DNA from: Minwuia sp.
GTDB lineage: Bacteria > Pseudomonadota > Alphaproteobacteria > Minwuiales > Minwuiaceae
NCBI GenBank assembly: GCA_029213165.1
Contig: JARGNO010000011.1
Span: 38,045 to 86,777, forward strand
Reading direction: 5' to 3'
Length of the DNA: 48,733 bases
Below, one piece after another: positions 8,844 through 23,513 of the stretch. Made by a program: the position numbers and the translations under genes. The stretch's first letter is position 1. Every line of letters starts with the position of its first letter. The notes beneath the pieces are model-generated. The model was not told the DNA's origin. It did no database searches and saw nothing but the letters and a program-made list of their open reading frames with translations.

Positions 8844-9908
8844 TCACATCGCCTCGGGCGGGACCAGGGCCGCCGGAATCTCGACGCCCTGTTCCTTGTA
8901 GTAGCGGTAGGCGCCGATGTGCAGCGGTACGTTCATCTCGTTCAGCGCCGTCTGCAGGTTGATCGCCTTCATCCATGGGGCAGTGGCGTGAATGTCGTCC
9001 AGATGATCGAAGAAGGCCTTGACCATGTCGTAGACGGTCTTCTCGTCCAGCCACTTCTGGGTCTGGATGCCGACCCATGAACCGATGGTGTCGACGGCTT
9101 CCGTATTGACCTGGTTCTCGTAGGAACCTGGCGGAATCTGCCAGACGGTGCGGCCCGGATACTTCAGCGCCGCCTTGATCAGATCATGATCGAAGCTTTC
9201 CTTCGGGATGCCGAGAATGCGGATGTCGCGTACGAAGGCAAACTGCTGGATCTGCGCGCTGGGGATGCTGGTGGGGACCATGTAGACGTCCATCTGCCCA
9301 TCCAGAAAGGCGACCTCGGCTGAGGACCAGTCGTAGCGCATTGCTTCGAAACCCTCGTCCGGTTTCAGCCCCGTCACGGCCTCCACCACGTCGGTCATGA
9401 CCTTGGTCGCGGCACCGGCCGGCGGGCCGAGGAAGACCTTGCGGCCCTTGATGTCCGCCAGTGTCTCGATCCCGGAATCGGCGAAGGTGATGATCTGGTA
9501 CGGACCCAGCGGATAGTTGATCATGCCGCGCAGGTTGGCGTTCAGCTCCGGCGCGTTGTCGACCTTGGCGAACATTGCCGCCTTGTTCTGCATGTACCAG
9601 TTGATGGTCGGTGCGCCGGTATACAGATCGACCTTCTGCAGGGCCGCATCGATGGCCGACTTGGTGGCCGGCTTTCCAGTGGAGACCTGAATCTCGATCG
9701 GCAGGTGCTTCTGCACCACCTGCGAGAAGGCGATCATGAACTGGCCGACGGTCGTGCCCGGCGGATTGCTGGCCATGGTCAGGAATTTCTTGTCCTGCGC
9801 CTGGGCGGAGCCCGGCAACAGGGTGGCCTGAGCCGAGCCCAGTACCAGGCCGAGGGCCGTAGCCGCCAGCACACCTCTTGCCGACAGCATGTTGTTGAAC
9901 GCTCCCAT
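8844..9908 (-). CDS. TAXI-family TRAP transporter substrate-binding protein
   Basis: A 354-residue periplasmic binding protein with a Sec signal peptide (hydrophobic stretch about 12-30, likely cleavage after AQA at 37). The mature start KKFLTMASNPPGTT and the middle segment IKGRKVFLGPPAGAATKVMTD follow the TAXI (TRAP-associated extracytoplasmic immunogenic) family pattern. Such proteins normally work with a fused TRAP membrane subunit, and none is adjacent, so the partner must be elsewhere or shared. ATG 9908 has a strong GGGGAGGATCAG upstream. The substrate is unknown; nearby dioxygenase and alkylsulfatase-like genes suggest an organic anion. Confidence 0.82.
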   Translation of the reverse strand: MGAFNNMLSARGVLAATALGLVLGSAQATLLPGSAQAQDKKFLTMASNPPGTTVGQFMIAFSQVVQKHLPIEIQVSTGKPATKSAIDAALQKVDLYTGAPTINWYMQNKAAMFAKVDNAPELNANLRGMINYPLGPYQIITFADSGIETLADIKGRKVFLGPPAGAATKVMTDVVEAVTGLKPDEGFEAMRYDWSSAEVAFLDGQMDVYMVPTSIPSAQIQQFAFVRDIRILGIPKESFDHDLIKAALKYPGRTVWQIPPGSYENQVNTEAVDTIGSWVGIQTQKWLDEKTVYDMVKAFFDHLDDIHATAPWMKAINLQTALNEMNVPLHIGAYRYYKEQGVEIPAALVPPEAM

Positions 9909-10230
9909 CTGATCCTCCCCGATGGTGTTTCGATTGTCTTCCCGGTGCCTGCGAGACACGCGCAAGGCACGCGCATTCGTGATTAACGCAGTCAGGTTAT
10001 TCCGGTCGGAAAAATTCGCAAGAGGAAATCCATGCAAGTCAGCCCTGCACTTTGAAGTTCAGTTCGTGGGAGCTTCCAAATGATTGCAGGTGCCCGGATT
10101 TCGGCAGATCGTGTCCAGACTTGTCCGCACAGGGAAGCGGATCGTGATAATTCAATATCATTAGGCATGATCAATCAAGTGACGGAACCGCCACAGACCC
10201 GCATCGGATTCGCGTCACCCGGAACGGGCT
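9909..10230. other. Intergenic region upstream of TAXI gene
   Basis: These 322 bases contain no convincing gene. The part around 10140-10190 is markedly AT-richer than its surroundings and holds a perfect 5-bp inverted repeat, TGATA-N6-TATCA (10145-10160), which could be an operator for the TAXI gene or chance. I see no clear terminator for the TetR gene upstream. Confidence 0.4.
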
Positions 10231-10947
10231 TCAGAGGTCGCCGGAGTCCTGAAGGGCGGCAACGACGGCGGGGGAGGGCTGTGAATCGAGGATGGCGATG
10301 ATGGCATCGTCCAGGCTGAGGAATTCCAGTTCGGCCCGGTTCTGGTCCCAGCTTTCACCGGCTTCCGACGCCGCCCGTTCGATCCGGGCCAGCGCATTGG
10401 CTGTCATCTGCAGCGCCAGGCCGTAGCGATGGCGCGTCAGCCGCTCCGGCAGGAAGGGCTTGGCCTCCAGCAGGGCGTCGAGAACCAGTTTCAGCCCTTC
10501 GGTCCGCTCATCCTTCTCGAACTGCTTCCAGATCGGCCGGTCCAGCCAGAGCATGCTCTGGAACCGCAGGTACCAGGTGTCATTCAGGTTCTGGCGCAGG
10601 TGGTCGGTCAGCGGTCGCGTCATCGCCTCCGCGATGTCGCGGGATTCCAGGGGCAGGGCACCGCGTCGCGCCTTTGCCTCCCGCACCAGTCGCACACGCG
10701 CGTCATTGATCGGCGTCGTGCGCAGCTCCAGGATCGCCGCCACGAGACCTTCGCGCGATCCGAAGTAATAATGGATCGCGCTCTCATTGCGCTGACCCGC
10801 AGCCTGATTGATGCGGCGCAGCGACGTGTTGGAGATGCCCTCTTCCGAGAAGATCCGCTCCGCCGCCAGAATCAGCGCAAGCCGGGTGTCCGTGCCCCCG
10901 TCACGTTCCTTCGGCTCCGCCCGCCTGTTGCCACTGTCGGCCGCCAT
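10231..10947 (-). CDS. TetR-family transcriptional regulator
   Basis: A 238-residue regulator with an N-terminal TetR helix-turn-helix at about 20-70 (RLALILAAERIFSEEG, then TSLRRINQAAG and the recognition segment ending in HYYFGSREGL). The C-terminal ligand domain (about 85-230) has no recognisable effector signature. It differs from the two TetR proteins at 16127 and 16872 and is not an obvious paralog of them. It lies 90 bp downstream of the first carboxyltransferase gene on the same strand, so it may be the last gene of that transcript or act on the TAXI gene. Cytoplasmic DNA-binding protein; target unknown. Confidence 0.84.
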   Translation of the reverse strand: MAADSGNRRAEPKERDGGTDTRLALILAAERIFSEEGISNTSLRRINQAAGQRNESAIHYYFGSREGLVAAILELRTTPINDARVRLVREAKARRGALPLESRDIAEAMTRPLTDHLRQNLNDTWYLRFQSMLWLDRPIWKQFEKDERTEGLKLVLDALLEAKPFLPERLTRHRYGLALQMTANALARIERAASEAGESWDQNRAELEFLSLDDAIIAILDSQPSPAVVAALQDSGDL

Positions 10948-11037: not shown

Positions 11038-12573
11038 TCAGATCGGGGCGATGGTCAGCTTCTTGGTGGAGCGGACGGGCGGCGTGGGAAATGTGTCCAT
11101 GGTGGCGGACAGGATCTGCCGCGTGTCGACCGGGTCAATGACGTCATCGAAGCCGAAGCGTTCCCCGACCCGCAGGCTGGTGTTGTAGGCCTTCAGTTCT
11201 TCCGTGTAGGCGCGATGCGCCTCGGCGCGTTCCGCCGGGTCGGCGATGGCTTCCAACTCGGCCTTGTAGATGATGCTTGCGGCACCCTCCAGGCCCATGC
11301 CGCCGAACTCGGCGGTTGGCCAGGCCAGCAGGATGGCCGGATGCAGCGGGCGTGATCCCATGATGTAGTAGCCCAGACCATAGGCCTTGCGCAGCACCAC
11401 GGTCATCAGCGGCACGGTCGCATTGGCCAGGGCGGAGAGCAGGCGCGCGCTGTGGCGGACCAGCGCCGTCTTCTCGATCTCCGGCCCGACCATCAGCCCC
11501 GGCGTGTCGCACAGCAGCAGGATGGGAATGTCATAGGCATCGCACAACTCGACGAAACGGGCCGACTTGGCGCAGGCGGGACTGTCCATGGCACCGCCCA
11601 GGAACATCGGCTGGTTGGCGACGATGCCCACCGTGCGGCCATCGATACGGGCCAGCGAGGTGACCATGGCCCGGCCCCATGCCGGTTTCAGCTCCAGCAC
11701 GCTGTCGGCATCGGCCAGTCCCTCTATCACCTTGCGCACGTCATAGGCGCGGCGTGGGCTTTCGGGCACCAGGTCGCGCAGTTTCTGCTGGTCGGGCGCT
11801 GGGACCGGAGCGACCGGACCACTGAAATAGGACAGATACCTGCGCGCCAGACGACAGGCATCGGCGTCGTCTTCCGCCATCAGGTCTATCGAACCGGCCT
11901 TCATGTGGACCTCGGCCGGACCGATTTCCTCCGGCGTCAGCTTCATGCCCAGCGCGGCCTCCACCAGCGGTGGTCCGGCCATGCCCATGGAGGCGTTCTT
12001 CGTGGCGATGGCGCAGTCGCTGAGGCCGGCCAGGTTGGCGTGTCCCGCGAAGGCGCGGCCCGGCACGATGCCCACGGTCGGGGCGAGACCGGAGAGGCGG
12101 GAGAAGGTGACGAAGGTCGTCGACATGCTCATGGACTGGATGAACATGTCATGCGGCCGTGCACCGCCGCCATCCAGCCAGCACAGTACCGGCAACCGCT
12201 GGCGCTCCGCATACTGGAACATGCGGCTGATCTTGCCATGGTTCACCGCGCTCTGCGTCCCGGCATAGACGGTATAGTCATAGGCGACGATGACGACCGG
12301 CTTGCCGTCCACCTTGCCGGTGCCCATGACCAGACCGTCGGCAGCACCCTCCATTCCCTTCGTCGCCGGTTTGGCGAGGCCGCCGTATTCGACGAAGCTG
12401 CCTTCGTCCAGCAGTTGCGCAACGCCTTCACGGGCGGTGCAGCGACCGCGCGCGTGCTGCTTGTCCACCGCGACCTTGCGCGCCGCGTCCGTTGTTGCGG
12501 CATGGGCGTCGAGGACTGCCTGCAGCCCTTCGCGTACCTGGGAGTCCGGTGATTTCTGTAGCGGGTTGTCCAT
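11038..12573 (-). CDS. Acyl-CoA carboxylase carboxyltransferase subunit (copy 1)
   Basis: A 511-residue beta-type carboxyltransferase of the crotonase superfamily that moves CO2 between carboxybiotin and an acyl-CoA. The N-terminal half contains ARGRCTAREGVAQLLDEGSF and the glycine loop DGGGARP (134-140); the C-terminal half has CDTPGLMVG (355-363) and RKAYGLGYYIMG, both typical of the propionyl-, methylcrotonyl- or geranyl-CoA carboxylase beta family. The acyl-CoA specificity cannot be assigned. It ends in TIAPI, similar to copy 2 at 14332 (SISPI). It lies 28 bp downstream of an acyl-CoA ligase, suggesting that the ligase product is its substrate. No biotin carboxylase gene is present nearby. 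Confidence 0.84.
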   Translation of the reverse strand: MDNPLQKSPDSQVREGLQAVLDAHAATTDAARKVAVDKQHARGRCTAREGVAQLLDEGSFVEYGGLAKPATKGMEGAADGLVMGTGKVDGKPVVIVAYDYTVYAGTQSAVNHGKISRMFQYAERQRLPVLCWLDGGGARPHDMFIQSMSMSTTFVTFSRLSGLAPTVGIVPGRAFAGHANLAGLSDCAIATKNASMGMAGPPLVEAALGMKLTPEEIGPAEVHMKAGSIDLMAEDDADACRLARRYLSYFSGPVAPVPAPDQQKLRDLVPESPRRAYDVRKVIEGLADADSVLELKPAWGRAMVTSLARIDGRTVGIVANQPMFLGGAMDSPACAKSARFVELCDAYDIPILLLCDTPGLMVGPEIEKTALVRHSARLLSALANATVPLMTVVLRKAYGLGYYIMGSRPLHPAILLAWPTAEFGGMGLEGAASIIYKAELEAIADPAERAEAHRAYTEELKAYNTSLRVGERFGFDDVIDPVDTRQILSATMDTFPTPPVRSTKKLTIAPI

Positions 12574-12601
12574 GGTCAATTCCGTTCTGTATCTGAGGCT
12601 G

Positions 12602-14239
12602 TCAGGTGAGGGCGCCAAGCTTGTCGCGCCCGATCTTCACCCCGGCCCGGTCACGGTCCCAGGTATCCGGGGTCACGCCTTCGTCACGCAGCAGGTGCTT
12701 CTGTACCTTCTGGGTGGGGGTCTTGGGCAGGTCATCCATGACGCGGATGAAGCGCGGGATCATGAAATGCGCCATGCGCGGGCGCAGGAATTCGATCAGT
12801 TCCTGCGGGTTCACGCGGCGGCCCGGGACGGGGGAGATGACCACCAGCAGTTCGTCTTCCCCAAGCTCGCTGGCAACGCCGACTGCTGCGCATTCGCGTA
12901 CATCCGCGTGGGCATTGACCTCGTTCTCGACCTCGAAGGAGGAGATGTTCTCGCCCCGGCGACGGATGGCATCCTTGGCGCGATCCACGAAGTAGAAGGT
13001 GCCGTCGGCATCGCGGCGGAACAGGTCCCCGGTGTGGAACCAGCCATTGCGCCAGGCCTTTGCCGTTGCCTCCGGGTTCTGGTTGTAGCCGTGGTTCAGG
13101 CCCCAGGGGCGTTCGTCGCGCACGATCATCTCGCCGATCTCGCCCGCGCCAACCTCGCAGTCATTCGCATCAACCAGGCGCACCGAAGCACCGGCGCGCA
13201 CCTTGCCGCATGAACCGGCCCTGGTCGGATTGCGCTCCGACATGAGCTGGCAACTGATCTCCGTCATGTTGAAGGTGGTGTAGATGTCGACCCCGAAGCG
13301 CTCACTGAACGCGGCCGCATCCTCCGTCAGCGGGACCATGAAGGCGTGGCGCAGCGGATGATCGCGATCCTGCGGACTGGGCGGAGCCTTCATCAGGAAG
13401 GGGGTCATCGCGCCCAGCAGGGTGAGACAGGTCGATCCGGAACGGCGGATCGTGTCCCAGAAGGTGTCGGTCTTGAAGGAATCCACCAGCGCGATGGACG
13501 CCCCCTTCGCCAGCATGCCGTAAGTGCCGCTGGTGCCGCCCGCGTGAAACAGGGGCAGGTTGACCATGCGACGGTCGTTCGCATCCAGCCAGTCCCTGGC
13601 GCTGACCGACATGGTGTAGAGGTGCAGGTACGAGGACAGCACACCCTTCGACGGGCCGGTGGTTCCGGAAGTGTAGATGATGGATTGCAGTTCCCACGGA
13701 TCGATGGGGCGTTCCAGCGGCGATGGCTCATCACCCATGGTCCCCAGCGCATCGATCCCTTCGACGGCCAGACGCGGGAATTCCGGCTCGCCGCCGACCA
13801 CGACAAGTCGCTCCAGACGGGACAGGTCGATGTCGCTCAGACGGTCCAGCAGATCCGCATGCACGATCATCAGGCGGGCATCGGCGTTGCGGATCACGTG
13901 CTCCAGCAGGCTGCCGCGATAGGCGGTATTCACCGGCACATATGTGGCCCCGATGTAATTGATGCCGAACCAGCAGCGCAGCATCAGCGGGCTGTTGGGC
14001 AGCCAGACGAGCACCCGCTCACCCCGTTCCACGCCCAGGTCCTGCAACCCGCTGCCGGTGCGAGCAGCCTCGGCCCGTGTCCGGGCGAAGGACCAGGTCT
14101 CGCCCTCGTCGAACCAGGCGAAGGGGCTGTCCGGTGTCTCGGCGGCCAGCCGGTCCAGCAGATGACGCAACACGCATTGGTCACGCGGTGGAATGCGCGG
14201 GTCCGCGAACGCCGCGCTGACGCTGTCTTCGCCTGTCAT
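12602..14239 (-). CDS. AMP-forming acyl-CoA ligase (copy 1)
   Basis: An ANL-superfamily ligase of 545 residues that activates a carboxylic acid through an acyl-adenylate and transfers it to CoA. It has the P-loop YTSGTTGPSKGV (189-200), TTFNMTE (adenine binding), WFHTGDLF with the conserved Asp, the hinge region KDAIRRRGENISSFEVE and the C-terminal PKTPTQKVQK with the adenylation Lys. The sequence resembles CaiC/acyl-CoA synthetase-type enzymes, but the acid is unknown. It sits between two carboxyltransferase genes and has a paralog at 17558. ATG 14239 begins a normal N-terminus. It is cytoplasmic. Confidence 0.88.
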   Translation of the reverse strand: MTGEDSVSAAFADPRIPPRDQCVLRHLLDRLAAETPDSPFAWFDEGETWSFARTRAEAARTGSGLQDLGVERGERVLVWLPNSPLMLRCWFGINYIGATYVPVNTAYRGSLLEHVIRNADARLMIVHADLLDRLSDIDLSRLERLVVVGGEPEFPRLAVEGIDALGTMGDEPSPLERPIDPWELQSIIYTSGTTGPSKGVLSSYLHLYTMSVSARDWLDANDRRMVNLPLFHAGGTSGTYGMLAKGASIALVDSFKTDTFWDTIRRSGSTCLTLLGAMTPFLMKAPPSPQDRDHPLRHAFMVPLTEDAAAFSERFGVDIYTTFNMTEISCQLMSERNPTRAGSCGKVRAGASVRLVDANDCEVGAGEIGEMIVRDERPWGLNHGYNQNPEATAKAWRNGWFHTGDLFRRDADGTFYFVDRAKDAIRRRGENISSFEVENEVNAHADVRECAAVGVASELGEDELLVVISPVPGRRVNPQELIEFLRPRMAHFMIPRFIRVMDDLPKTPTQKVQKHLLRDEGVTPDTWDRDRAGVKIGRDKLGALT

Positions 14240-14331
14240 CTGTCAGTCCTCCCCCATTGGTGTCCCCGCTGCTCGCGGGTATCCATCTCGCTGATCATCT
14301 GCCCAATGCCCGTCGGCATCCTCCCCGGGCG

Positions 14332-15879
14332 TCAGATCGGCGAGATGGATCTGTATTTCGGCGGCATGGCGTTCTCCCGACGCGCGGGTGCCCGTGCCAG
14401 GATCTCGATCAGTCGGCTTCTGGTTGTCTCCGGTTCGATGATGTCATCGACCCCCAGACCCTCGGCGCCGCGCAAGGCACTGACCCGCGCACGCATCCCG
14501 GCCACGATTTCCCTGCGGCGCTCGTCCGGATCCGGCGCACTGTCGATATCCTTGCGGTAGGCGACATTGGCCGCGCCCTCCAGCGACATGGCGCAGATCT
14601 CGGAGGTCGGCCAGGCCAGGCTGGCGTCGGCATCGAAGCTGCGTCCGCCGCACATGGCGATATAGCCAAGGCCATAGCCCTTGCGCAGGACGATGGAGAC
14701 CCTGGGCACTGTCGCCTGGCCCAGTTCGTAGACCATGCGGGCGCTGCGTCGGCCCAGCAGACTCTTCTCTGCCGAGGAGCCGATGGAGAAGCCGGGCACG
14801 TCGATCAGATAGACAAGCGGCACACCGAATGCGTCGCAGACTGCCACGAAGTGCGCGATCTTCTCGCAGGCGGGGGAGGTCAGCATGCCGCCAAGCTGCA
14901 TCGGCTGATTGGCGATAATGCCGACGGGCCTGCCATCCAGCCGGGCCAGGGCCGTGACGGCATTCTTCGCAAAAGTCGGCTTGATCTCCAACTGGCTGTG
15001 AGGATCGACCAGCCGGGCAATGACCTTGCGTACATCATAGGCCTTCCGCGTGTCCGCGGGGACCAGTTTCGCCATCTGCGCCTGCCGGTCGTCGTCGGGC
15101 GGGGGCGTGATGCAGGGCAGGGGGGCACGGGCATTGGAGGGCAGCAGGTCGAGATACTTGCGCACCGCACCCAGCGCCTCTGCCTCGCTGTCCACGCCCA
15201 GATGGGCGAGGCCGTGGGTATCCACCTGTGCCCCGGCACCGCCCAGCGACTGGATGTCGATTTCCTCCCCTGTGCCGGCCTTCACCAGTGCCGGTCCGGC
15301 AAGACCCATGCAGGATTGGCCCCGGACCATGATCACGAAATCCGACATGCCGGCATAGTTGGTTGGACCGGCGAAACCGGCACCCATCATCACCGAGACG
15401 ACAGGAACCCAGCCCGAGAGCCGTGCGAAATCGTGGAACGTCGGTGAGCCATTGGCGAAGTGCCGCGAGTCCTGACCGTCCTGGATACGGTGGCCGCCAC
15501 CATCCAGCAGCATGACCAGCGGTGCGCCGTCCCGCATCGCCTGCTGGATCGCGCGCCTGATCTTGGCGCTGCCGAGCTTGCCGCTGGATCCGCCATGGAC
15601 GGTGAAATCCTGCGCCAGCACGACGGCTGGCCGGGCACCGATCAGGGCGCAGCCCATGACAACGCCGTCAGCCGGTCGCTCCTCCCGTGTGCCGTCATCG
15701 TCACGGACCAGCCCGCCAATCTCCCGGAAGCTGCCGGCGTCGCAAAGCGTCGCGATCCGCTGCCGGGCCGTCATCTCGGCACGTTTCATCTGGCGTTCGA
15801 CCGCCCGGGGGCGCGAGCTATCTTCCAGCGCGGCGCGGGCGCTGGCAATGTCATGGTCGGCAGGGGATTGCTGGTTCAT
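14332..15879 (-). CDS. Acyl-CoA carboxylase carboxyltransferase subunit (copy 2)
   Basis: A 515-residue carboxyltransferase paralogous to the one at 11038. It has MTARQRIATLCDAGSFREIGG near the N-terminus, a variant glycine loop DGGGHRIQD (126-134, His where copy 1 has Ala), and the C-terminal RKGYGLGYIAMCGG and WPTSEICAMSLEGAANVAY segments. It could carboxylate or, in reverse, decarboxylate an acyl-CoA. It lies 6 bp downstream of a small biotin carrier, so that pair is almost certainly co-expressed. Two distinct carboxyltransferases may form a mixed complex or act on different acyl-CoAs; sequence alone does not decide. Confidence 0.84.
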   Translation of the reverse strand: MNQQSPADHDIASARAALEDSSRPRAVERQMKRAEMTARQRIATLCDAGSFREIGGLVRDDDGTREERPADGVVMGCALIGARPAVVLAQDFTVHGGSSGKLGSAKIRRAIQQAMRDGAPLVMLLDGGGHRIQDGQDSRHFANGSPTFHDFARLSGWVPVVSVMMGAGFAGPTNYAGMSDFVIMVRGQSCMGLAGPALVKAGTGEEIDIQSLGGAGAQVDTHGLAHLGVDSEAEALGAVRKYLDLLPSNARAPLPCITPPPDDDRQAQMAKLVPADTRKAYDVRKVIARLVDPHSQLEIKPTFAKNAVTALARLDGRPVGIIANQPMQLGGMLTSPACEKIAHFVAVCDAFGVPLVYLIDVPGFSIGSSAEKSLLGRRSARMVYELGQATVPRVSIVLRKGYGLGYIAMCGGRSFDADASLAWPTSEICAMSLEGAANVAYRKDIDSAPDPDERRREIVAGMRARVSALRGAEGLGVDDIIEPETTRSRLIEILARAPARRENAMPPKYRSISPI

Positions 15880-15885
15880 GGCCGG

Positions 15886-16098
15886 TCAGGCCTCGATACG
15901 GGCGACGACCTGGCCCTCCTGAACGCTCTCCGCCTCTTCCACCAGGATCTCGGTAATGCGACCGCCGCCCGGCGCGCCGACCGGAATCTCCATCTTCATC
16001 GATTCCAGGATCATGATCTCGTCTTCTTCCTCGACCGTGTCGCCGACGGCGGTGACGATCTTCCAGACCTTCCCTGCGATCTCTGATTTGACGTCCAT
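15886..16098 (-). CDS. Small biotin carboxyl carrier protein
   Basis: A free-standing biotinyl domain of 70 residues. The motif ILESMKMEIPV places the biotin-accepting Lys at 35 in the expected hairpin turn, and the rest is the two halves of a barrel-sandwich fold (SEIAGKVWKI and GGRITEILVEEAESVQEGQVV). Such 70-residue carriers occur with acyl-CoA carboxylases in several bacteria (for example YngHB-type proteins). GGGAGAAG precedes ATG 16098. It lies 6 bp upstream of carboxyltransferase copy 2. It needs a biotin carboxylase to be charged, and none is in the window. A lipoyl domain is less likely because lipoyl sites usually read DKA. Confidence 0.88.
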   Translation of the reverse strand: MDVKSEIAGKVWKIVTAVGDTVEEEDEIMILESMKMEIPVGAPGGGRITEILVEEAESVQEGQVVARIEA

Positions 16099-16126: not shown

Positions 16127-16777
16127 TCATGCAGGCGGGGTGTTTTCCGCCGGTTCCCTTGGTACAAGGGCTTCCCTGAACAGGCTGTTCAGGTGCTTCC
16201 CCGCTGTTTCGAGGTTGGTTGCGCCATCATCGACAAGCGATTGAACAATAAGACCTCTGACCGCGCCAAGAATGGATGTCGCCATCTGATCCACATCAAT
16301 ATCGGGTCTGAGTTCGCCAAGTGCTGCAGCTTCCGCCAGATGGCGGCGAAAGCCCTGCCGATAGGCTTCGACATAGGCCTGCATGCGCGGCCGCAGATCA
16401 GTGACTGCACCGATTGATTCCACATAGAGCTGATAGACCGTGATCGTACCGGAGGCATCGTCGCGGGCGCCCTGAAGGTGCATGTTCATCCGGACGAACA
16501 GGGCTTCAAGTCCCTTCCTTTCGCCAATCTGCCGGGCCACCCGACGCTCGAACCCACGCTCCGATGCATCGACGACTTCTTCCAGCAGGGCCAGCTTGGT
16601 GCCGAAACGCGCGGCGGGCAGACCACGGCTGTAACCGGCCTCCAGGCCGATCTGCGCCATGCTGGTGGCGACCGATCCCTGGCGTCCGATCAATCGGATT
16701 GCTGCCACGAGCATTTCCCGATCAGAATCGTTTCGGCGCTGGGATTGGGTGCGTCGTTGGGGTGTGGAATCAGCCAT
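16127..16777 (-). CDS. TetR-family regulator (TetR-A), candidate TRAP regulator
   Basis: A 216-residue regulator with a TetR-type DNA-binding domain at about 17-65 (LVAAIRLIGRQGSVATSMAQIG, then AGYSRGLPAARFGTKLALLE). The SRGLP-x3-(Y/F)G-(S/T)K pattern in the recognition region is shared with the adjacent TetR protein at 16872, marking them as paralogs. The C-terminal domain is of unknown ligand specificity. A 22-bp dyad lies 9 bp before its start codon, and a near-copy precedes dctP at 22331, which suggests self-regulation and control of the TRAP operon. It lies 28 bp upstream of the biotin carrier, so it is probably in the same transcript. Confidence 0.85.
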   Translation of the reverse strand: MADSTPQRRTQSQRRNDSDREMLVAAIRLIGRQGSVATSMAQIGLEAGYSRGLPAARFGTKLALLEEVVDASERGFERRVARQIGERKGLEALFVRMNMHLQGARDDASGTITVYQLYVESIGAVTDLRPRMQAYVEAYRQGFRRHLAEAAALGELRPDIDVDQMATSILGAVRGLIVQSLVDDGATNLETAGKHLNSLFREALVPREPAENTPPA

Positions 16778-16786
16778 GCTTCGTAA

Positions 16787-16808
16787 ACTTGTTTGTTGAC
16801 CAGCAAAT
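16787..16808. promoter_or_regulatory. Candidate TetR operator, site 1
   Basis: A 22-bp imperfect dyad, ACTTG-N12-CAAAT, with 7 of 11 pairs complementary, lies between the two TetR genes and 9 bp before the start of the one at 16777. In an offset alignment 19 of 22 bases match the element at 22331-22352 when that one is read on the opposite strand. Its position next to a TATTAAT sequence, read on the minus strand, suggests it blocks transcription of TetR-A. Confidence 0.6.
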
Positions 16809-16871
16809 TAATAGTTCGGACCCGGTCCAGCGACAAGTGCAATGCGCGGGGTGGAGCCATGCCGTCGTGTT

Positions 16872-17531
16872 TCAGCCCGGAGGTGTGATGTCGTCGATCA
16901 ACTCCCTGATGATGCTTTCGGCCGCGATCAGGATGTCGTCGTCACCAAGACCGATCAGGGCCTGGACGGCGACACCATGCATGGCAGAGAGGATCAGCGT
17001 CGCGTGTCTTTCCAGGTCCAGATCCGCCGACAGTGCGCCCGACGTCCTGGCAATGGAAAGGTCACGCAGGATGCCTTGTCGCCAGCGTTCGTTCAGTCGC
17101 TGCACCCGGGGACGCAACTCCGGCAACGTCGCCGCCGAATCGATGATCAGCAGGAACAGTGCAACGGTCGGGACCTTGGACTCCCTGACCGTTTCCAGAT
17201 GCGCGCGAATGCGTTCACGCAGGGAATCCAGGCCTTCACGTCCTTCCAGGCGGGCTGCCAGACGTCGCTGAAACCAGGCATCGGACGCATCGATGACCGC
17301 CTCCAGAAGATTGGACTTGGAGCCGTAGCGCTCCGTCGGCAGACCGCGACTGTAACCGGCGGCCACGCCAATCTTGGCAAGACTGACCCCGGCGGAACCA
17401 TGTTTCGCGATCAACTGCGTCGCCGCCCGCAACATGCGGCTGTCGGACTCGGCCCGTCGCTCCGCCTGGGTGCGGCGGCTGTCGCCATTGCCTTCTTCAA
17501 CGATCGCGATCTGATCCAGATCCTGTTCCAC
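16872..17531 (-). CDS. TetR-family regulator (TetR-B)
   Basis: A 219-residue TetR regulator with the DNA-binding domain at about 30-80 (RMLRAATQLIAKHGSAGVSL, AKIGVAAGYSRGLPTERYGSK). It is paralogous to TetR-A immediately downstream. The start is GTG 17531: no ATG occurs before the helix-turn-helix, and GGGGAG lies about 12 nt upstream. It begins 26 bp after the second acyl-CoA ligase and is probably transcribed with it. The ligand domain (about 90-215) carries LLIIDSAATLPELRPRVQRL, which matches the position of the related segment in TetR-A. Target genes are probably in this acyl-CoA cluster. Confidence 0.82.
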   Translation of the reverse strand: MEQDLDQIAIVEEGNGDSRRTQAERRAESDSRMLRAATQLIAKHGSAGVSLAKIGVAAGYSRGLPTERYGSKSNLLEAVIDASDAWFQRRLAARLEGREGLDSLRERIRAHLETVRESKVPTVALFLLIIDSAATLPELRPRVQRLNERWRQGILRDLSIARTSGALSADLDLERHATLILSAMHGVAVQALIGLGDDDILIAAESIIRELIDDITPPG

Positions 17532-17557
17532 CCGCTTCCAGAACTCCCCTGCAGACG

Positions 17558-19198
17558 TCAGCCGCTCAACTTCTCCCGGCGAACGCGAATGCCTGCCTTG
17601 TCGCGATCCCAGGTATCCGGCGTGACGCCTTCTTCGCGCAGATTGACCTTCTGAACCTTCTCCGTCGGGGTCCGGGGCAGTCGATCAACAATGCGAACAT
17701 AGCGGGGCACCATGAAATGGGCCATCCGCGGGATCAGGAACTCGATCAGTTCGGTCGGATCGACAGTCCTGTTTGCCGACGCCGCAACCACGATCATCAC
17801 CTCGTCCTCACTGACATCGCTCTTCACGGCGATTGCCGCGCATTCCTGGACTGCCGGATGCGCCAGAACCTCGGTTTCCACTTCGAAGGATGAGATGTTC
17901 TCCCCCCGACGCCGGATCGCATCCTTCATGCGGTCGACAAAGTAGAAGTTGCCGTCCGCATCCTTGCGGAAACCGTCCCCGGTGTGGAACCAGCCATTGC
18001 GCCAGGCTTTCGCCGTGGCTTCCTCGTTCTTGTAGTAGCCATGGTTCATGGTCCAGGGGCAGTCGGCGCGGATGATCAGTTCGCCCACCGTGCCGACGGC
18101 CACCTCGCAGTCATTCTCATCGACCACCCGGCATTCAACGCCGTCACGCGGCGTTCCGGCGCTGTGCAGCAGGGTCGGGTTGATGGGAGAGATCAGCGGA
18201 CAGGAAATCTCCGTCATGTTGAACAGTGTCAGTGTCTGGACGCCGAAACGCGACCGGAACTCCGTCGGGTCGAAATCGAACGGGACCAGCATGACTGTCC
18301 GCAACGGATTGTCTTGCTCCTCCGGAACCGGTTCCTGCTTGGCGAGGAACTGGGCCATCACGCCCAGCAGGATGGCGAAGGTGACCCGGGTTTCCTTGAT
18401 CGTCTTCCAGAATGTCGCGGTATTGAAGGCATCCACGATGGAGATGGAGCCGCCCATGGCCAGCATGATGTGGGCGGGCAGGGTGCCGCCGACATGAAAC
18501 ATCGGCAGGCTGAGCAGATAGCGGTCATCGGCGGAGATCAGGCCGTTGCCGTCTTCTCCCGGCAGGTTCGAATAGGCTGCGCCGGTCATGTAGGCATGCA
18601 GGTAGGACGAAAGGACACCTTTCGATGGTCCGGTCGTGCCGGAGGGGTAGATGATCGACTGCGTGTCCCAGGGCATGATCTCCCGCGGCGGCGGTGACGG
18701 CTCTGCTTCCGCGGGCGAGAGAACCTCCGCACCATGCACCTGCAGGTCAGCACAGGCGTCCGGTGTGCCGCCGATGATGACGACCGTTTTCAGCCTTGCC
18801 CTGTCGATATCCGCCAGCCTTGGTGCCAGACCGGCATGGGCTATGATCAGGCTGGCATCGGAGTTCGCCACCACATGCGCCAGGATTCCGCCCTTGTACG
18901 ACGTGTTGATCGGAACGTAGACAGCACCGAGGTAGTTGATCGCGAACCAGACACGCAGCGCATCCTGCCCGTTGGGCAGCCAGCTCACCACGTGGTCGCC
19001 CTGCTTCACACCCAGCGTCTCAAGCCCCGCAGCAGTGCGACGCACCTGTTCGCGCAATTCCCGATAGGTCCATTCGGTGCCGTCCGGAAAGACGGCATAG
19101 ACCTTGTCGGGTGTCTCAGCCGCGTTGCGCTCGATCAAGGGGCGGGTGACACACATTTCCGGTGGCGCCATGCGGGGGTCGATATGAGCTTCAGTCAT
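17558..19198 (-). CDS. AMP-forming acyl-CoA ligase (copy 2)
   Basis: A 546-residue paralog of the ligase at 12602, with the same motif order: P-loop (184-195), TLFNMTE, WFHTGDGFRKDADGNFYF, KDAIRRRGENISSFEVE and PRTPTEKVQK with the C-terminal Lys. The P-loop reads YPSGTTGPSKGV, with Pro185 where copy 1 and most family members have Thr; the Gly/Thr/Lys residues contacting phosphate are intact, so it may well be active. The two copies share the VLSSYLHxY segment and likely arose by duplication, while differences in the middle suggest separate substrates. It lies 58 bp downstream of dctM, so the TRAP genes may be transcribed into it. Confidence 0.87.
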   Translation of the reverse strand: MTEAHIDPRMAPPEMCVTRPLIERNAAETPDKVYAVFPDGTEWTYRELREQVRRTAAGLETLGVKQGDHVVSWLPNGQDALRVWFAINYLGAVYVPINTSYKGGILAHVVANSDASLIIAHAGLAPRLADIDRARLKTVVIIGGTPDACADLQVHGAEVLSPAEAEPSPPPREIMPWDTQSIIYPSGTTGPSKGVLSSYLHAYMTGAAYSNLPGEDGNGLISADDRYLLSLPMFHVGGTLPAHIMLAMGGSISIVDAFNTATFWKTIKETRVTFAILLGVMAQFLAKQEPVPEEQDNPLRTVMLVPFDFDPTEFRSRFGVQTLTLFNMTEISCPLISPINPTLLHSAGTPRDGVECRVVDENDCEVAVGTVGELIIRADCPWTMNHGYYKNEEATAKAWRNGWFHTGDGFRKDADGNFYFVDRMKDAIRRRGENISSFEVETEVLAHPAVQECAAIAVKSDVSEDEVMIVVAASANRTVDPTELIEFLIPRMAHFMVPRYVRIVDRLPRTPTEKVQKVNLREEGVTPDTWDRDKAGIRVRREKLSG

Positions 19199-19256
19199 TG
19201 AAATGCTCCTCTGAATCCAGGTGCCAGGGGGACAGCCGAACGGGCAGGCCGTGCCC

Positions 19257-20564
19257 CTAGCCCATGAGCGTGGGCAGGTAGGTGATGATGCCGGGGAAGA
19301 TTATCAGCAGGGCCACGACTATCGCGTCAGCCACCAGGAACCACATGATTCCGCGGAAGATCGTCGACAGGCTCGCCAGATTGCCCACGACCCCCTTGAT
19401 GACAAAGACGTTGAGTCCGATGGGTGGAGTGATCATGCCGATCTCCAGGAACTTCACCAGATAGACGCCGAACCAGATCAGGTCGAAGTTGCTCTTCTCC
19501 AGTACCGGCAGCAGCACCGGCAGGGTCAGCAGCATCGCACCCAACGGGTCGAGGAACATTCCCAGCACCAGGTAAAGCAGGGAGATGCCCAGGATCAGCA
19601 TCAGCGGGTCGGCCTGCAGCCCCAGAATGGCGGAGGCGATCAGTTCGCCGCTGCCTGAGAGCGCCAGGAACCGCGTCAGCAGGTTGGCGCCGACCGCGAT
19701 CAGGAACAGGGCACCTGTGGTGGTGAGGGTCTCGATCACCGCATTCCAGAAAGCCTCCCGCGTCAGGGAACCCTTCAGGGCGGAGATCACGATGGAGGCA
19801 AAGGCACCGATGGCGCCCGCTTCCGTTGCGGTGAACAGACCGGCAAAGATGCCGCCGATGACAACCACCAGGATCACGATCAGCGGCCATGTCTTGCTGA
19901 GATGCTCCAGGCGCTCCGACAGGGGCGGAGTTTCATCCAGGGCGGGCGCAAGCGCCGGGTTCAGCCTGGCCCGGATGTAGATCATCATCACGTAGGCAAA
20001 GGCGGTCAGCAGACCGGCACCGACGCCGCCGATGAACAGCTTGCCGATAGGCACTTCGGCAAAGACACCGAACAGGATCAGCAGGATGGAGGGCGGAATC
20101 AGTGCGCCCAGTGTGCCGGCGGCGGCAATCGTGCCTGTTGCCAGGGCGGCGTCATAGCGCTTGGCAATCATCTCGGGCACCGCGATACGCCCCATCGCGG
20201 CGGCGCAGGCAACGGATGAACCGGTCACGGCGGCGAACCCGGCCGATCCGACGACAGAGGCAATGGCCAGGCCACCGGGGACCTTTGCCATCCAGCTTCG
20301 ACAGGCGTCGAACAGGCTCTTGGTCAGTCCCGCATGGTAGCAGACGAAACCCATCATCAGGAACATGGGCACTGATGACAGGGTCCATTTCGCGGCAAAA
20401 TCGTAAGGGATGGTCGACAGGATTCCCCAGGCGGGGCGACTGCCGATCATGATGTAGATGCCGCCGAAGCTGACCAGGATCAGCGCGATTCCGATGGGGA
20501 ACCGCAACAGCAGCATCAAGACAAGGACGCCGAGGCCGAGCAGGCCAATGATCTCGTTTTCCAT
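19257..20564 (-). CDS. dctM: TRAP transporter large permease, DctM type
   Basis: The 435-residue inner-membrane protein is the transport subunit of a tripartite ATP-independent periplasmic system, driven by an ion gradient. It is almost entirely hydrophobic (about 12 membrane segments) and contains family segments such as GSAGFAAVTGSSVACAAAMG, GALIPPSILLILFG and GMFLDPLGAMLLTLPVLLP. Its ATG follows the dctQ stop codon without a gap (TGAATG), so translation is probably coupled. The substrate is an organic acid set by the binding protein at 21167; context suggests a precursor for the acyl-CoA ligases. Confidence 0.92.
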   Translation of the reverse strand: MENEIIGLLGLGVLVLMLLLRFPIGIALILVSFGGIYIMIGSRPAWGILSTIPYDFAAKWTLSSVPMFLMMGFVCYHAGLTKSLFDACRSWMAKVPGGLAIASVVGSAGFAAVTGSSVACAAAMGRIAVPEMIAKRYDAALATGTIAAAGTLGALIPPSILLILFGVFAEVPIGKLFIGGVGAGLLTAFAYVMMIYIRARLNPALAPALDETPPLSERLEHLSKTWPLIVILVVVIGGIFAGLFTATEAGAIGAFASIVISALKGSLTREAFWNAVIETLTTTGALFLIAVGANLLTRFLALSGSGELIASAILGLQADPLMLILGISLLYLVLGMFLDPLGAMLLTLPVLLPVLEKSNFDLIWFGVYLVKFLEIGMITPPIGLNVFVIKGVVGNLASLSTIFRGIMWFLVADAIVVALLIIFPGIITYLPTLMG

Positions 20565-21134
20565 TCAGCCCTCGTTCCGTTGGGCATCGCGTGCGAGCGC
20601 CTGTTCATGGGCTTCAGCATCAAAGGGAGTTTCACCGAGGCCGCTGGCCAGTCCGGTGACGCTGTTGCAGAAGCGGTAGAGAAGGATCAGGGCGAACAGC
20701 CCGAACCCGAAGGGCAGCACGAAGTAGCTCGGCCAGATGATGATCTTCAGACCACTCTCGAGAATGTTCGCATCGACGCTGAATTTCTTCAGCGACTCGA
20801 ACCAGAGACGATGTGCGATACCGCCCGCGACCACCGCAGAGACCAGCCAGACGGCACCGATCACGAGTTTCTGCCAGCGTTCGGAGAACTGCCGGAAGAT
20901 CACCTCGACCGAGATATGACCATTCAGTTTCTCGGACAGCGCGACCGGCAGATAGGCGACGATCACCATGTAGTAATGCGAAACGATGAGTGAGGTTGCA
21001 GGGATTGGCCAGTTGAAGAGATTCTTCAGCAGAACATCCGCCACGATCTGCAGCATCATCAGCATGACCGCCGCCGCCCCGATCATCGTCGAGGCGGCGA
21101 CAAGCCATGACAGCACACGTCCCAGTGCTTTCAT
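20565..21134 (-). CDS. dctQ: TRAP transporter small permease, DctQ type
   Basis: A 189-residue membrane protein with four predicted transmembrane segments (about 5-30, 50-70, 90-112 and 132-160) and the DctQ signature around SLIVSHYYMVIVAYLPVAL and GHISVEVIFRQF. It pairs with DctM to form the membrane part of the transporter. The gene lies between dctP (32 bp upstream) and dctM (immediately downstream). The hydrophilic C-terminal tail (about 165-189) ends in a charged stretch. The overall operon is dctP-dctQ-dctM. Confidence 0.9.
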   Translation of the reverse strand: MKALGRVLSWLVAASTMIGAAAVMLMMLQIVADVLLKNLFNWPIPATSLIVSHYYMVIVAYLPVALSEKLNGHISVEVIFRQFSERWQKLVIGAVWLVSAVVAGGIAHRLWFESLKKFSVDANILESGLKIIIWPSYFVLPFGFGLFALILLYRFCNSVTGLASGLGETPFDAEAHEQALARDAQRNEG

Positions 21135-21166
21135 GGGGCGGTCTTCCTTCCGGGTATCGGAGCGGA

Positions 21167-22288
21167 TCAGAGCTTGGCGGGGTCGATCTTCGCGAAGATC
21201 TCCTGCACGAACAGGTCGGACACGGCCTTTGTGTCAGACACGTCGATGTCCGCCGTCAGCTTCGCCCACTTCTCCACCAGACCATTGATGATCTGAAGCT
21301 GCTCTTCCGCGTCCTGGATGCCGAACTTTTCCTTGTTCAGCTTCGCCACGGCCTTCAGGTCGTTGGCACGGAACTTCGCCGTCGCTTCAGCAACTGCTGC
21401 CGAGGGCTCGACGATCTCGACACCAACGGTGCTCGGATTCCGGAACAGCTCCTGATTCTCGGCGAGATAGGTCACCGTGGTCCAGGCCACCGAAGAACCA
21501 CCGGCCAGGATGAAGGACTTCTTGTCCGCTGCCGACAGGTCGTTCCAGACATCGCGGTTCAGGTTGAACATGTTGTTGCCGATATAGACGCCGATCGGAG
21601 CATCGAGCAGATAGTCGGTGACCTCACCGATGGAGAGGCTGCGCAGCACATCCAGTGTGTGCGTATTGCCGTCCAACTGACCCTGGCTGATCGATTCATA
21701 GATGTCATTGGCACCCAGAACGACAGCCGTGGCACCCATGGCCTCGACCCAGCGACCGAAGGGTCCGAAACCGCGGATCTTCTTGCCCTTGAAGTCGTCC
21801 GGCGTGGAAATCTTGTCGACGGACATCATGTAATAGGGGCCGATCACGGACGTGCCGAGGAACACCTGATTCTGTGCCTTGTATTCGTTCAGGCACTTGT
21901 CGCAGGTGGCCAGGTACTCGTTTGCCGCGCCGGCAATCGCGACCGGATTGACACCAGCCGTTGCCATGTCGACCAGCAGGTTGCCATAGGGGAACTCACC
22001 GCGGTGATAGGCAGGCACGACATAGGCGACATCGGCGATGCCATCGCGCACACCGGTCATCGATTCGGCGAAATTCAGCAGTGAAAGCTCGAACACCTTG
22101 CCGGTATAACGACCTTCCGTACGCTTCTCGATCTGTTCGGCAAACTCGTACATGCCGCGGACCAGGCCGCCGCTGCCGGTATTGCCGATGGCGATGCGCA
22201 GTTCGTCGGCTTGTGCAGGTGCCGACGCCATTGCGGCTGCCAGCCCCATGCAACCCGCAACAAGTGCGGACGTGATCTTGAGGGTCAT
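21167..22288 (-). CDS. dctP: TRAP transporter substrate-binding protein, DctP type
   Basis: A 373-residue periplasmic binding protein with a signal peptide (cleavage likely after AQA at 27). It has the DctP pattern of GKKIRGFGPFGRWVEAMGA, then VVLGANDIYESISQGQLDG, with the Arg that usually binds the substrate carboxylate in the first segment. A pair of cysteines (CDKC, about residue 130) is unusual for the family and may form a disulfide. A strong GGGGAGGAAAC precedes ATG 22288. A 22-bp dyad 42 bp upstream matches the one before a TetR gene, so transport is probably repressed until an inducer appears. It heads the dctPQM operon. Confidence 0.9.
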   Translation of the reverse strand: MTLKITSALVAGCMGLAAAMASAPAQADELRIAIGNTGSGGLVRGMYEFAEQIEKRTEGRYTGKVFELSLLNFAESMTGVRDGIADVAYVVPAYHRGEFPYGNLLVDMATAGVNPVAIAGAANEYLATCDKCLNEYKAQNQVFLGTSVIGPYYMMSVDKISTPDDFKGKKIRGFGPFGRWVEAMGATAVVLGANDIYESISQGQLDGNTHTLDVLRSLSIGEVTDYLLDAPIGVYIGNNMFNLNRDVWNDLSAADKKSFILAGGSSVAWTTVTYLAENQELFRNPSTVGVEIVEPSAAVAEATAKFRANDLKAVAKLNKEKFGIQDAEEQLQIINGLVEKWAKLTADIDVSDTKAVSDLFVQEIFAKIDPAKL

Positions 22289-22330
22289 CTGTTTCCTCCC
22301 CTGAACCTCTTTACCTGACGACAGTAACTT

Positions 22331-22352
22331 ACTTGCTGGGCAACCATCAAGT
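22331..22352. promoter_or_regulatory. Candidate TetR operator, site 2
   Basis: A 22-bp dyad reading ACTTG-N12-CAAGT, with 8 of 11 pairs complementary, lies 42 bp before the dctP start codon. It overlaps an 11-bp palindrome, AGTAACTTACT (22323-22333). Read on the other strand and aligned, 19 of 22 bases match the element at 16785-16806 in front of a TetR gene. The divergent quinone oxidoreductase (22524) could also be affected. Confidence 0.62.
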
Positions 22353-22523
22353 TTGTTCGGGCGGGGGTGCTGTGCTTTATTTGCAGGTTCACAGACCGGC
22401 GGGCGCATGTGCCGTCTGCGGGCGCCAGTCTGGCCGGTTGTCCGCAGGGCAACTGCATGGCTGACATGGCTTCATTTGGTCGGCATCGTGTTCCTGGATG
22501 TGTTCCGGCGTGGGGGAGTGGCA

Positions 22524-23513
22524 ATGAAGGTCGTCAGAGGCTCCGATCTGGAGTCGGTCAATAGTTATCGGCTCACTGATGTTGACCCTCCGCGCGCAGG
22601 CCCGGGGGAAGTGACGGTCGCGGTTGCAGCCTGCGGTATCGGCTATGTCGATGTGCTGGTGGCGCTTGGCGGCTATCAGGTGAAGCCTCCTTTGCCTCAC
22701 GTTCCGGGTGCGGAAGTGGCGGGGACCGTTACCGAGTTGGGACCTGGCGCCGAAGGCCTGGAGGTGGGGCAACGGGTGCTTGCGGCTGTCAGGGGCGGCT
22801 TCGCGGAGCAGGTGACCGCGCCTGTGGATGCCGTCTATCCGATCCCCGGATCAATGGATCTTGCGGCTGCGGCGGCGCTGCCGGTGAACTACCTGACAGC
22901 ACTGCATGGCTTGCGCGACAGGGGGAACCTTCAGCCCGGTGAGCGGCTGCTGGTGACCGGTGCGGCAGGTGGCGTCGGTATCGCGGCGGTACAGGTGGGC
23001 AAGGCCATGGGGGCGGAAGTTGTTGCTGTCGCCTCGACGGAGGAGAAGCGGGCATTCGCCAGCGATTGCGGTGCCGATCATGTGCTGGACAGCGACGTGG
23101 AGGGATGGCGGGAGCGTCTGCGCGCGTTGCTGGGTGGCAAGGGGCCGAACGTGATCTTCGATCCGCTTTGCGGCCCCCTGTTCGAACCTGCCTTCCGGTC
23201 CCTTGCCTGGGGCGGGCGGCATCTGGTCGTCGGCTTTGTCGGTGGCCCGATTCCGGCACTGCGCAGCAACCTGCCGCTGATGAAAGGGGCCGGTCTGCTG
23301 GGTGTTGATGTCAGGCAGTTCAAGCTGTTCGAGGCCGGGAAGGCCGCCGCACACATGCGAGAACTGATTGCCTGGACTGCCGAAGGCCGGCTGAGCCCGG
23401 CACTGGGCAAAAGGTTTCCGTTCGCCGACTTCGCGGCAGCGATGGAACACGCCCACAAGGGCAGGGGCTGTGGCAAGACGATCCTGGATGTCGTGCCTGC
23501 CGGAACCGCCTGA
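22524..23513 (+). CDS. NADPH:quinone oxidoreductase family protein
   Basis: A 329-residue MDR protein without evident zinc ligands. It has the GroES-like N-terminus (CGIGYVDVLVALGGYQ, HVPGAEVAGTVTELG), the nucleotide loop VTGAAGGVGIAAVQVG and a C-terminal GKTILDV strand. Members reduce quinones or enoyl substrates with NADPH. ATG 22524 has GGGGGAG 6 nt upstream, while the open frame continues to 22353 without a good start. It diverges from dctP, sharing the region with the TetR-type dyad, and converges on the PhyH gene, the stops being only 4 bp apart. It is distinct from qor at 2784. Confidence 0.85.
   Translation: MKVVRGSDLESVNSYRLTDVDPPRAGPGEVTVAVAACGIGYVDVLVALGGYQVKPPLPHVPGAEVAGTVTELGPGAEGLEVGQRVLAAVRGGFAEQVTAPVDAVYPIPGSMDLAAAAALPVNYLTALHGLRDRGNLQPGERLLVTGAAGGVGIAAVQVGKAMGAEVVAVASTEEKRAFASDCGADHVLDSDVEGWRERLRALLGGKGPNVIFDPLCGPLFEPAFRSLAWGGRHLVVGFVGGPIPALRSNLPLMKGAGLLGVDVRQFKLFEAGKAAAHMRELIAWTAEGRLSPALGKRFPFADFAAAMEHAHKGRGCGKTILDVVPAGTA

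Follow-up and report, generated by a model that had tools for sequence, protein, structure and literature searches.

The window analysed here, a stretch of 48,733 nucleotides from the genome of Minwuia sp., contains two similar imperfect dyads, one before a gene for a TetR-family regulator (tetR-A) and one before dctP, encoding the solute-binding protein of a TRAP transporter, and raises the question of whether these are operators and which regulator would read them. The first predicted operator (16785..16808, dyad 16787-16808) lies in the gap between tetR-B and tetR-A, 9 bp upstream of the tetR-A start codon at 16777. The second (22331..22354, dyad 22331-22352) lies in the gap between dctP and a divergent oxidoreductase gene, 42 bp upstream of the dctP start codon at 22288; no strand is assigned to either. 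An earlier note on this DNA had described both as imperfect palindromes and had given these distances, all of which we recovered: 7 of 11 pairs are complementary in the first dyad and 8 of 11 in the second. The 19 of 22 equal bases that it had counted between them are also found, when 16785-16806 is compared with the reverse complement of 22333-22354, two bases off the dyads themselves, which match on opposite strands at 18 of 22 positions. The two operators differ at 3-4 of 22 positions, and their half-sites, ACTTGCT and AGCAAGT, have 8 bp between them.

At best, 19 of 22 bases agree when the two intergenic gaps are compared, a value reached in none of 3000 dinucleotide shuffles (18 was reached in 6 of 3000), and the best match of 16785-16806 elsewhere in the window is 15 of 22. 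The whole-genome motif search proposed in the earlier note was run over 4,122,005 bases, in which the joint pattern AACTTGNTKGTTGMCCAGCAA, with up to three mismatches, matches only the two dyads; its reversed control has no match in the same 4.12 Mb genome. Chance similarity of the dyads was rejected on this whole-genome rarity and on the shuffles. A scan for sigma-70-like promoters between 16100 and 22600 gave no match, with 1.4 expected from shuffles.

The order of features on the minus strand is dctP (21167..22288), dctQ for the TRAP small permease (20565..21134), dctM for the large permease (19257..20564), lig1 for an AMP-forming acyl-CoA ligase (17558..19198), tetR-B (16872..17531), operator 1, tetR-A (16127..16777), the gene of a biotin carrier protein of 70 aa (15886..16098), the carboxyltransferase gene CT1 (14332..15879), lig2 for another AMP-forming acyl-CoA ligase (12602..14239) and the carboxyltransferase gene CT2 (11038..12618). 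The tetR-B gene, encoding a paralogous TetR-family regulator with the helix region GYSRGLPTERYGSK, comes after the run of dctPQM and ligase genes and has their orientation, and tetR-A, whose product has the helix region GYSRGLPAARFGTK, is followed by the biotin-carrier gene; we infer the operon structure of these genes from their order and spacing. In this setting, the dyads look like sites for TetR repressors governing the uptake and CoA activation of an acid. On the other side of operator 2, 171 bp away and divergent from dctP, the gene for a zinc-type quinone/enoyl reductase (22524..23513, plus strand) is a possible second target, and had no match in the examined stretch of the relative G002.

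The region 11038-16098 brings together two carboxyltransferases and the stand-alone biotin carrier; its best NCBIfam model is methylmalonyl-CoA decarboxylase alpha, with a score below the cut-off of that model, and a Pfam scan covering 30 window proteins found no biotin carboxylase. After the carboxyltransferase run comes a third TetR gene (10231-10947, minus strand), whose product scores above the cut-off for TetR_N and below that for TetR_C_30; it was rejected as a reader of the same sites because its helix region INQAAGQRNESAIHYYFGSR differs from those of TetR-A and TetR-B. It is adjoined by a gene for an NMT1_3-type (TAXI-like) solute-binding protein (8844-10037, minus strand), possibly part of a second uptake system of the cluster.

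TetR-A and TetR-B both carry a TetR_N domain (31.9 and 30.9 bits, respectively; curated cut-off 24) and are 40% identical over their full length. What is common to their helix regions is the core GYSRGLP only; it is followed by AARFGTK in TetR-A and by TERYGSK in TetR-B, and their DNA specificities may differ for this reason. The predicted structure of TetR-A (mean pLDDT 93.0) has nine helices in the all-helical TetR fold, with a helix at residues 53-58 that runs from LP onward and the shared YSRG in the preceding turn. Neither protein scores above the cut-off of any of the NCBIfam TetR equivalogs (ScbR, BetI, AcrR, RutR, AcuR, PsrA, FadR and others): TetR-A reaches 44.7 bits with the ScbR model (cut-off 150) and 37.6 with BetI (cut-off 201.3), and the best score of TetR-B is 40.2 (ScbR). 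Their identity with a named NCBIfam equivalog was rejected on these scores.

The same element stands beside related regulators in other genera. A scan of named genomes yielded 75 loci, of which four from Minwuia (L103, L104, L105, L135) were set aside; the TetR proteins of all 71 remaining loci contain AGYSRGLP, a constancy that is partly due to selection, since GYSRGLP was one of the two collecting patterns. With a symmetric matrix built from seven Minwuia sites, 55 positions in 1,280,675 bases score at least 20, compared with none for each of 30 column-permuted symmetric matrices. Sites of at least 18 occur in 53 of the 71 loci, within 250 bp before tetR in 33 and elsewhere in the locus in 20; these counts are not independent, since many loci are near relatives (seven TctC-linked sites, for example, are from the Comamonadaceae Pseudacidovorax and Xenophilus). 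The matrix found no site of at least 18 in the other 18 loci, including four from Myxococcota with no site above 12, and three of the 18 (L164, L165, L173) have weaker sites (15-17) before tetR, four others of the 18 (L110, L112, L114, L116) having weak ones (12-13) before dctP. The logo pooled from 38 distinct sites of at least 20, leaving out the Minwuia loci, L159 and L174, reads AYTTGCTKGYYRRCMAGCAART, with a symmetry that is partly imposed by the matrix.

A gene for a solute-binding protein adjoins 35 of 59 collapsed sites (TctC at 24, the ABC type Peripla_BP_6 at 8 and DctP at 3, the classes being assigned by similarity to examples classed with Pfam), so that the operator commonly sits at an uptake-system promoter, irrespective of transporter class. 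A TetR gene adjoins 34 of the 59; others lie next to genes for acyl-CoA dehydrogenase, CaiB or thiolase, and for five no neighbour matched in the small reference set. Two loci, from Bradyrhizobium vignae (L159) and Acetobacter sacchari (L174), have four operator-like sites of at least 18 each within 20 kb, one of them preceding a thiolase gene, which hints that some lineages have a wider regulon. Upstream of dctP itself, in ten non-Minwuia regions, there are sites of at least 18 in L111, L115 and L124, weak sites (12-13) in L110, L112, L114 and L116, and no site of at least 9 in L106, L120 and L140. Two tandem weak copies of the operator, with starts 29 bp apart, are present in L110 (6819-6869) and shortly before dctP in L114, where the first copy was recognised by eye. 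In L120 and L140 a related dyad, TTGGTGGTTGACCA, was seen by eye some 165-180 bp upstream of where the dctP match begins, at a place where the matrix scored none. A conserved asymmetry of the dctP operators across genera was considered and dropped, because the weaker half is on different sides in Minwuia and Sneathiella.

Phylogeny bears on which of the two repressors belongs to which site. A tree was built from 50 proteins, 11 of Minwuia and the others from 39 of the 71 loci. TetR-A is placed there in a set confined to Minwuia (7 rows, 100/94), TetR-B in one that also has 11 proteins from other genera (15 rows, 99/93). This latter set includes the regulators of Sneathiella (L111), Albimonas donghaensis (L124) and Tistrella (L115), whose clusters have the operator before dctP, L111 and L124 being flagged as long branches of unsure place. 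It also includes two proteins from Bradyrhizobium, where the operator precedes the gene of an ABC-type binding protein, those of L110, L112 and L116, with weak or doubtful dctP sites, and those of L106, L120 and L140, where none was scored. This placement beside dctP-linked TetRs from other genera makes the TetR-B line the most likely owner of operator 2; at operator 1, self-regulation by TetR-A is plausible. From the sites and their conservation, the gene order, the phylogeny and the helix core we would therefore draw, with slightly better than even confidence, a wiring of two paralogous repressors with one operator code, in which dctP is mainly under TetR-B and the tetR-A promoter mainly under TetR-A itself; the conjectural parts of this scheme are the operons, the binding and repression, the way in which the two proteins share the work, and the effector. 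It is also conceivable, with perhaps half that likelihood, that the paralogs are redundant, binding both operators about equally and differing in their effectors, so that two metabolites gate one regulon. The same helix core and near-identical operators in one genome would fit such redundancy, in proteins that are 40% identical overall, but the differences between the operators and the divergent residues after GYSRGLP could allow the two repressors to discriminate.

The relatives of this Minwuia genome bear on the model of the earlier note, taken here to mean that TetR-A is autoregulated and is the sole repressor of the TRAP genes, acting on them in trans, and that TetR-B has a different site. 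The related-genome search that it had proposed found operator 1 before the tetR-A orthologs of G001, G002, G003 and G006; operator 2 is present before the dctP orthologs of G001 and G002 and weak in G003, where the site is degenerate. When G003 and G006 are added to the alignment of operator 1, its flanks prove poorly conserved and the operator contrasts with them; for operator 2, with G003, the contrast is less sharp. Across seven genomes, the two-site pattern with up to two mismatches has 10 matches at known operators (including that of G005) and 3 elsewhere, compared with 2 for the control. A looser symmetric pattern with up to three mismatches has 26 matches genus-wide, 21 at known operators (most of them counted on both strands) and 5 elsewhere, and is uninformative on number alone because the control gives 24. 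Protein searches of G004 gave no match to TetR-A or TetR-B; this genome has no site with the two-mismatch pattern and one three-mismatch match with the looser one. In G000 and G001, paralogous clusters have a variant operator before the gene of a 53-54% identical TetR, followed by a ligase gene and dctPQM.

Two of these genomes point in opposite directions. G003 has a TetR-A-clade protein, and no TetR-B was found in it; the contig with dctP stops about 430 bases beyond the ligase gene, however, and some of the expected location is missing from it. On this contig, which is not that of the gene for the TetR-A-clade protein, dctP still has its weak site, at which control would have to act in trans. 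This and the operator 9 bp before tetR-A favour a regulon under TetR-A alone. G005, on the other hand, keeps tetR-B and the intergenic operator 1, with the biotin-carrier gene starting 110 bp after the operator and no tetR-A between them; protein searches gave TetR-B, the only close family member found, and one weak match, and tetR-A could be unassembled, since the assembly is 89% complete in 660 contigs. Given G005, and given that TetR-B has the same helix core and groups with dctP-linked TetRs, control by TetR-A alone seems to us improbable. What stands of the original proposal is the presence, before both tetR-A and the TRAP genes, of predicted TetR operators that are conserved within the genus and have counterparts in others; the role of TetR-A as the one TRAP repressor finds no support in the form proposed.

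A second sample came from 385 genomes of the class, of which 13 had TetR relatives (E 1e-15); among 13 such non-Minwuia loci, taken with 1.5 kb flanks, a site of at least 18 is present in three of the six with AGYSRG and in one of the seven without it, and none was found in the flanks of the closest relative in this sample (G266/L181), which has AGYSRGLP. In the reverse search, the strict palindrome ACTTGCT-N8-AGCAAGT occurs in 4 of the 385 genomes, and its reversed control in 5. The palindrome of G252 lies between a CoA-ligase-like gene and one that we read from its ORF as a Rieske-type oxygenase, about 1.1 kb from the gene of an AGYSRGLP TetR, and is a suggestive single case linking the palindrome to such a regulator; no AGYSRG protein is encoded within 1.5 kb of the remaining three, which are in genomes not among the 13 with a TetR relative. 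That the dyads belong to some other, unlinked regulator, or are alike by chance, is very improbable: this weak reverse search and the unremarkable number of looser matches in the genus would speak for it, but the rarity of the dyads and their recurrence beside the TetR subfamily in many genera, with none for the 30 permuted matrices, speak against it. By every comparison except the reverse search, the pair is real and conserved as predicted TetR operators, and we are highly confident, on sequence grounds, that the dyads are operators of this GYSRGLP subfamily.

In the two-repressor wiring that we prefer, TetR-B would most likely repress the dctPQM-ligase run, its own gene included, from the operator before dctP, and TetR-A would most likely repress its own promoter and the biotin-carrier, carboxyltransferase and ligase genes behind it from operator 1. 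Each would probably also bind the operator of the other, because the helix cores and the operators nearly coincide, and such cross-binding would switch uptake and activation together with the later carboxyltransferase step. Both repressors would probably be released by an acyl-CoA or an acid made from the imported substrate; the neighbouring ligase genes make an acyl-CoA a reasonable guess for the effector, no more. In a broader reading, to which we give about even chances, the GYSRGLP core and the 22-bp operator form a portable repressor-operator module that is fixed across many alpha- and a few betaproteobacteria, with the transporter class exchanged (TRAP with DctP, TTT with TctC, ABC with Peripla_BP_6). 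Since the repressor is doubled in Minwuia, two effectors may there gate one uptake-activation-carboxyltransferase regulon through the shared operator code. The Minwuia pair would offer a compact example of two paralogous repressors that have apparently kept the same operator code. For a TetR subfamily left unnamed here by the NCBIfam equivalog models, the comparison gives an operator code that can be tested. It also places solute-binding proteins from three unrelated kinds of uptake system in comparable regulons, giving a handle on their substrates.

The mechanism is of a known kind, ordinary TetR control. Kazakov 2009 is reportedly the source for FadP and LiuQ. In searches of open-access papers we recognised no description of this operator, and we do not claim its absence from print. 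In a Foldseek search with the TetR-A model, TetR structures match, the top two (2nx4 and 3qbm) being uncharacterised; among the better matches with a described function are the acyl-CoA-binding, TetR-type FadRs of Bacillus and Sulfolobus, solved with acyl-CoA. These share only 18-21% identity with TetR-A, however, and the efflux repressors NalD, SmeT and QacR match about as well, so that the fold is a weak hint only of an acyl-CoA effector. PA3973 of Pseudomonas aeruginosa is, as predicted for the Minwuia proteins, a TetR repressor, and is linked to an operon for acyl-CoA dehydrogenase (PMC9736018); an operator of its type was rejected, as the 13-bp motif SAAGRNMTGAACG described there does not resemble the dyads. 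KstR2 of mycobacteria is described as a TetR autoregulator with a few local operators that controls catabolism, and its half-sites have the similar letters CAAG/CTTG (PMC3068626). Its 14-bp motif AnCAAGnnCTTGnT, as given in that account, has the opposite half-site order and a 2-bp centre, whereas the Minwuia half-sites are 8 bp apart, and a KstR2-like operator was rejected on order and spacing, compared by eye. A further parallel is FadP of the Burkholderiales, a TetR repressor predicted by comparative genomics to have sites before CoA-linked catabolic operons, its described targets being operons of fatty-acid beta-oxidation (PMC5343134, PMC12543098). The betaproteobacterial AGYSRGLP proteins of Pseudacidovorax and Xenophilus could be FadP.
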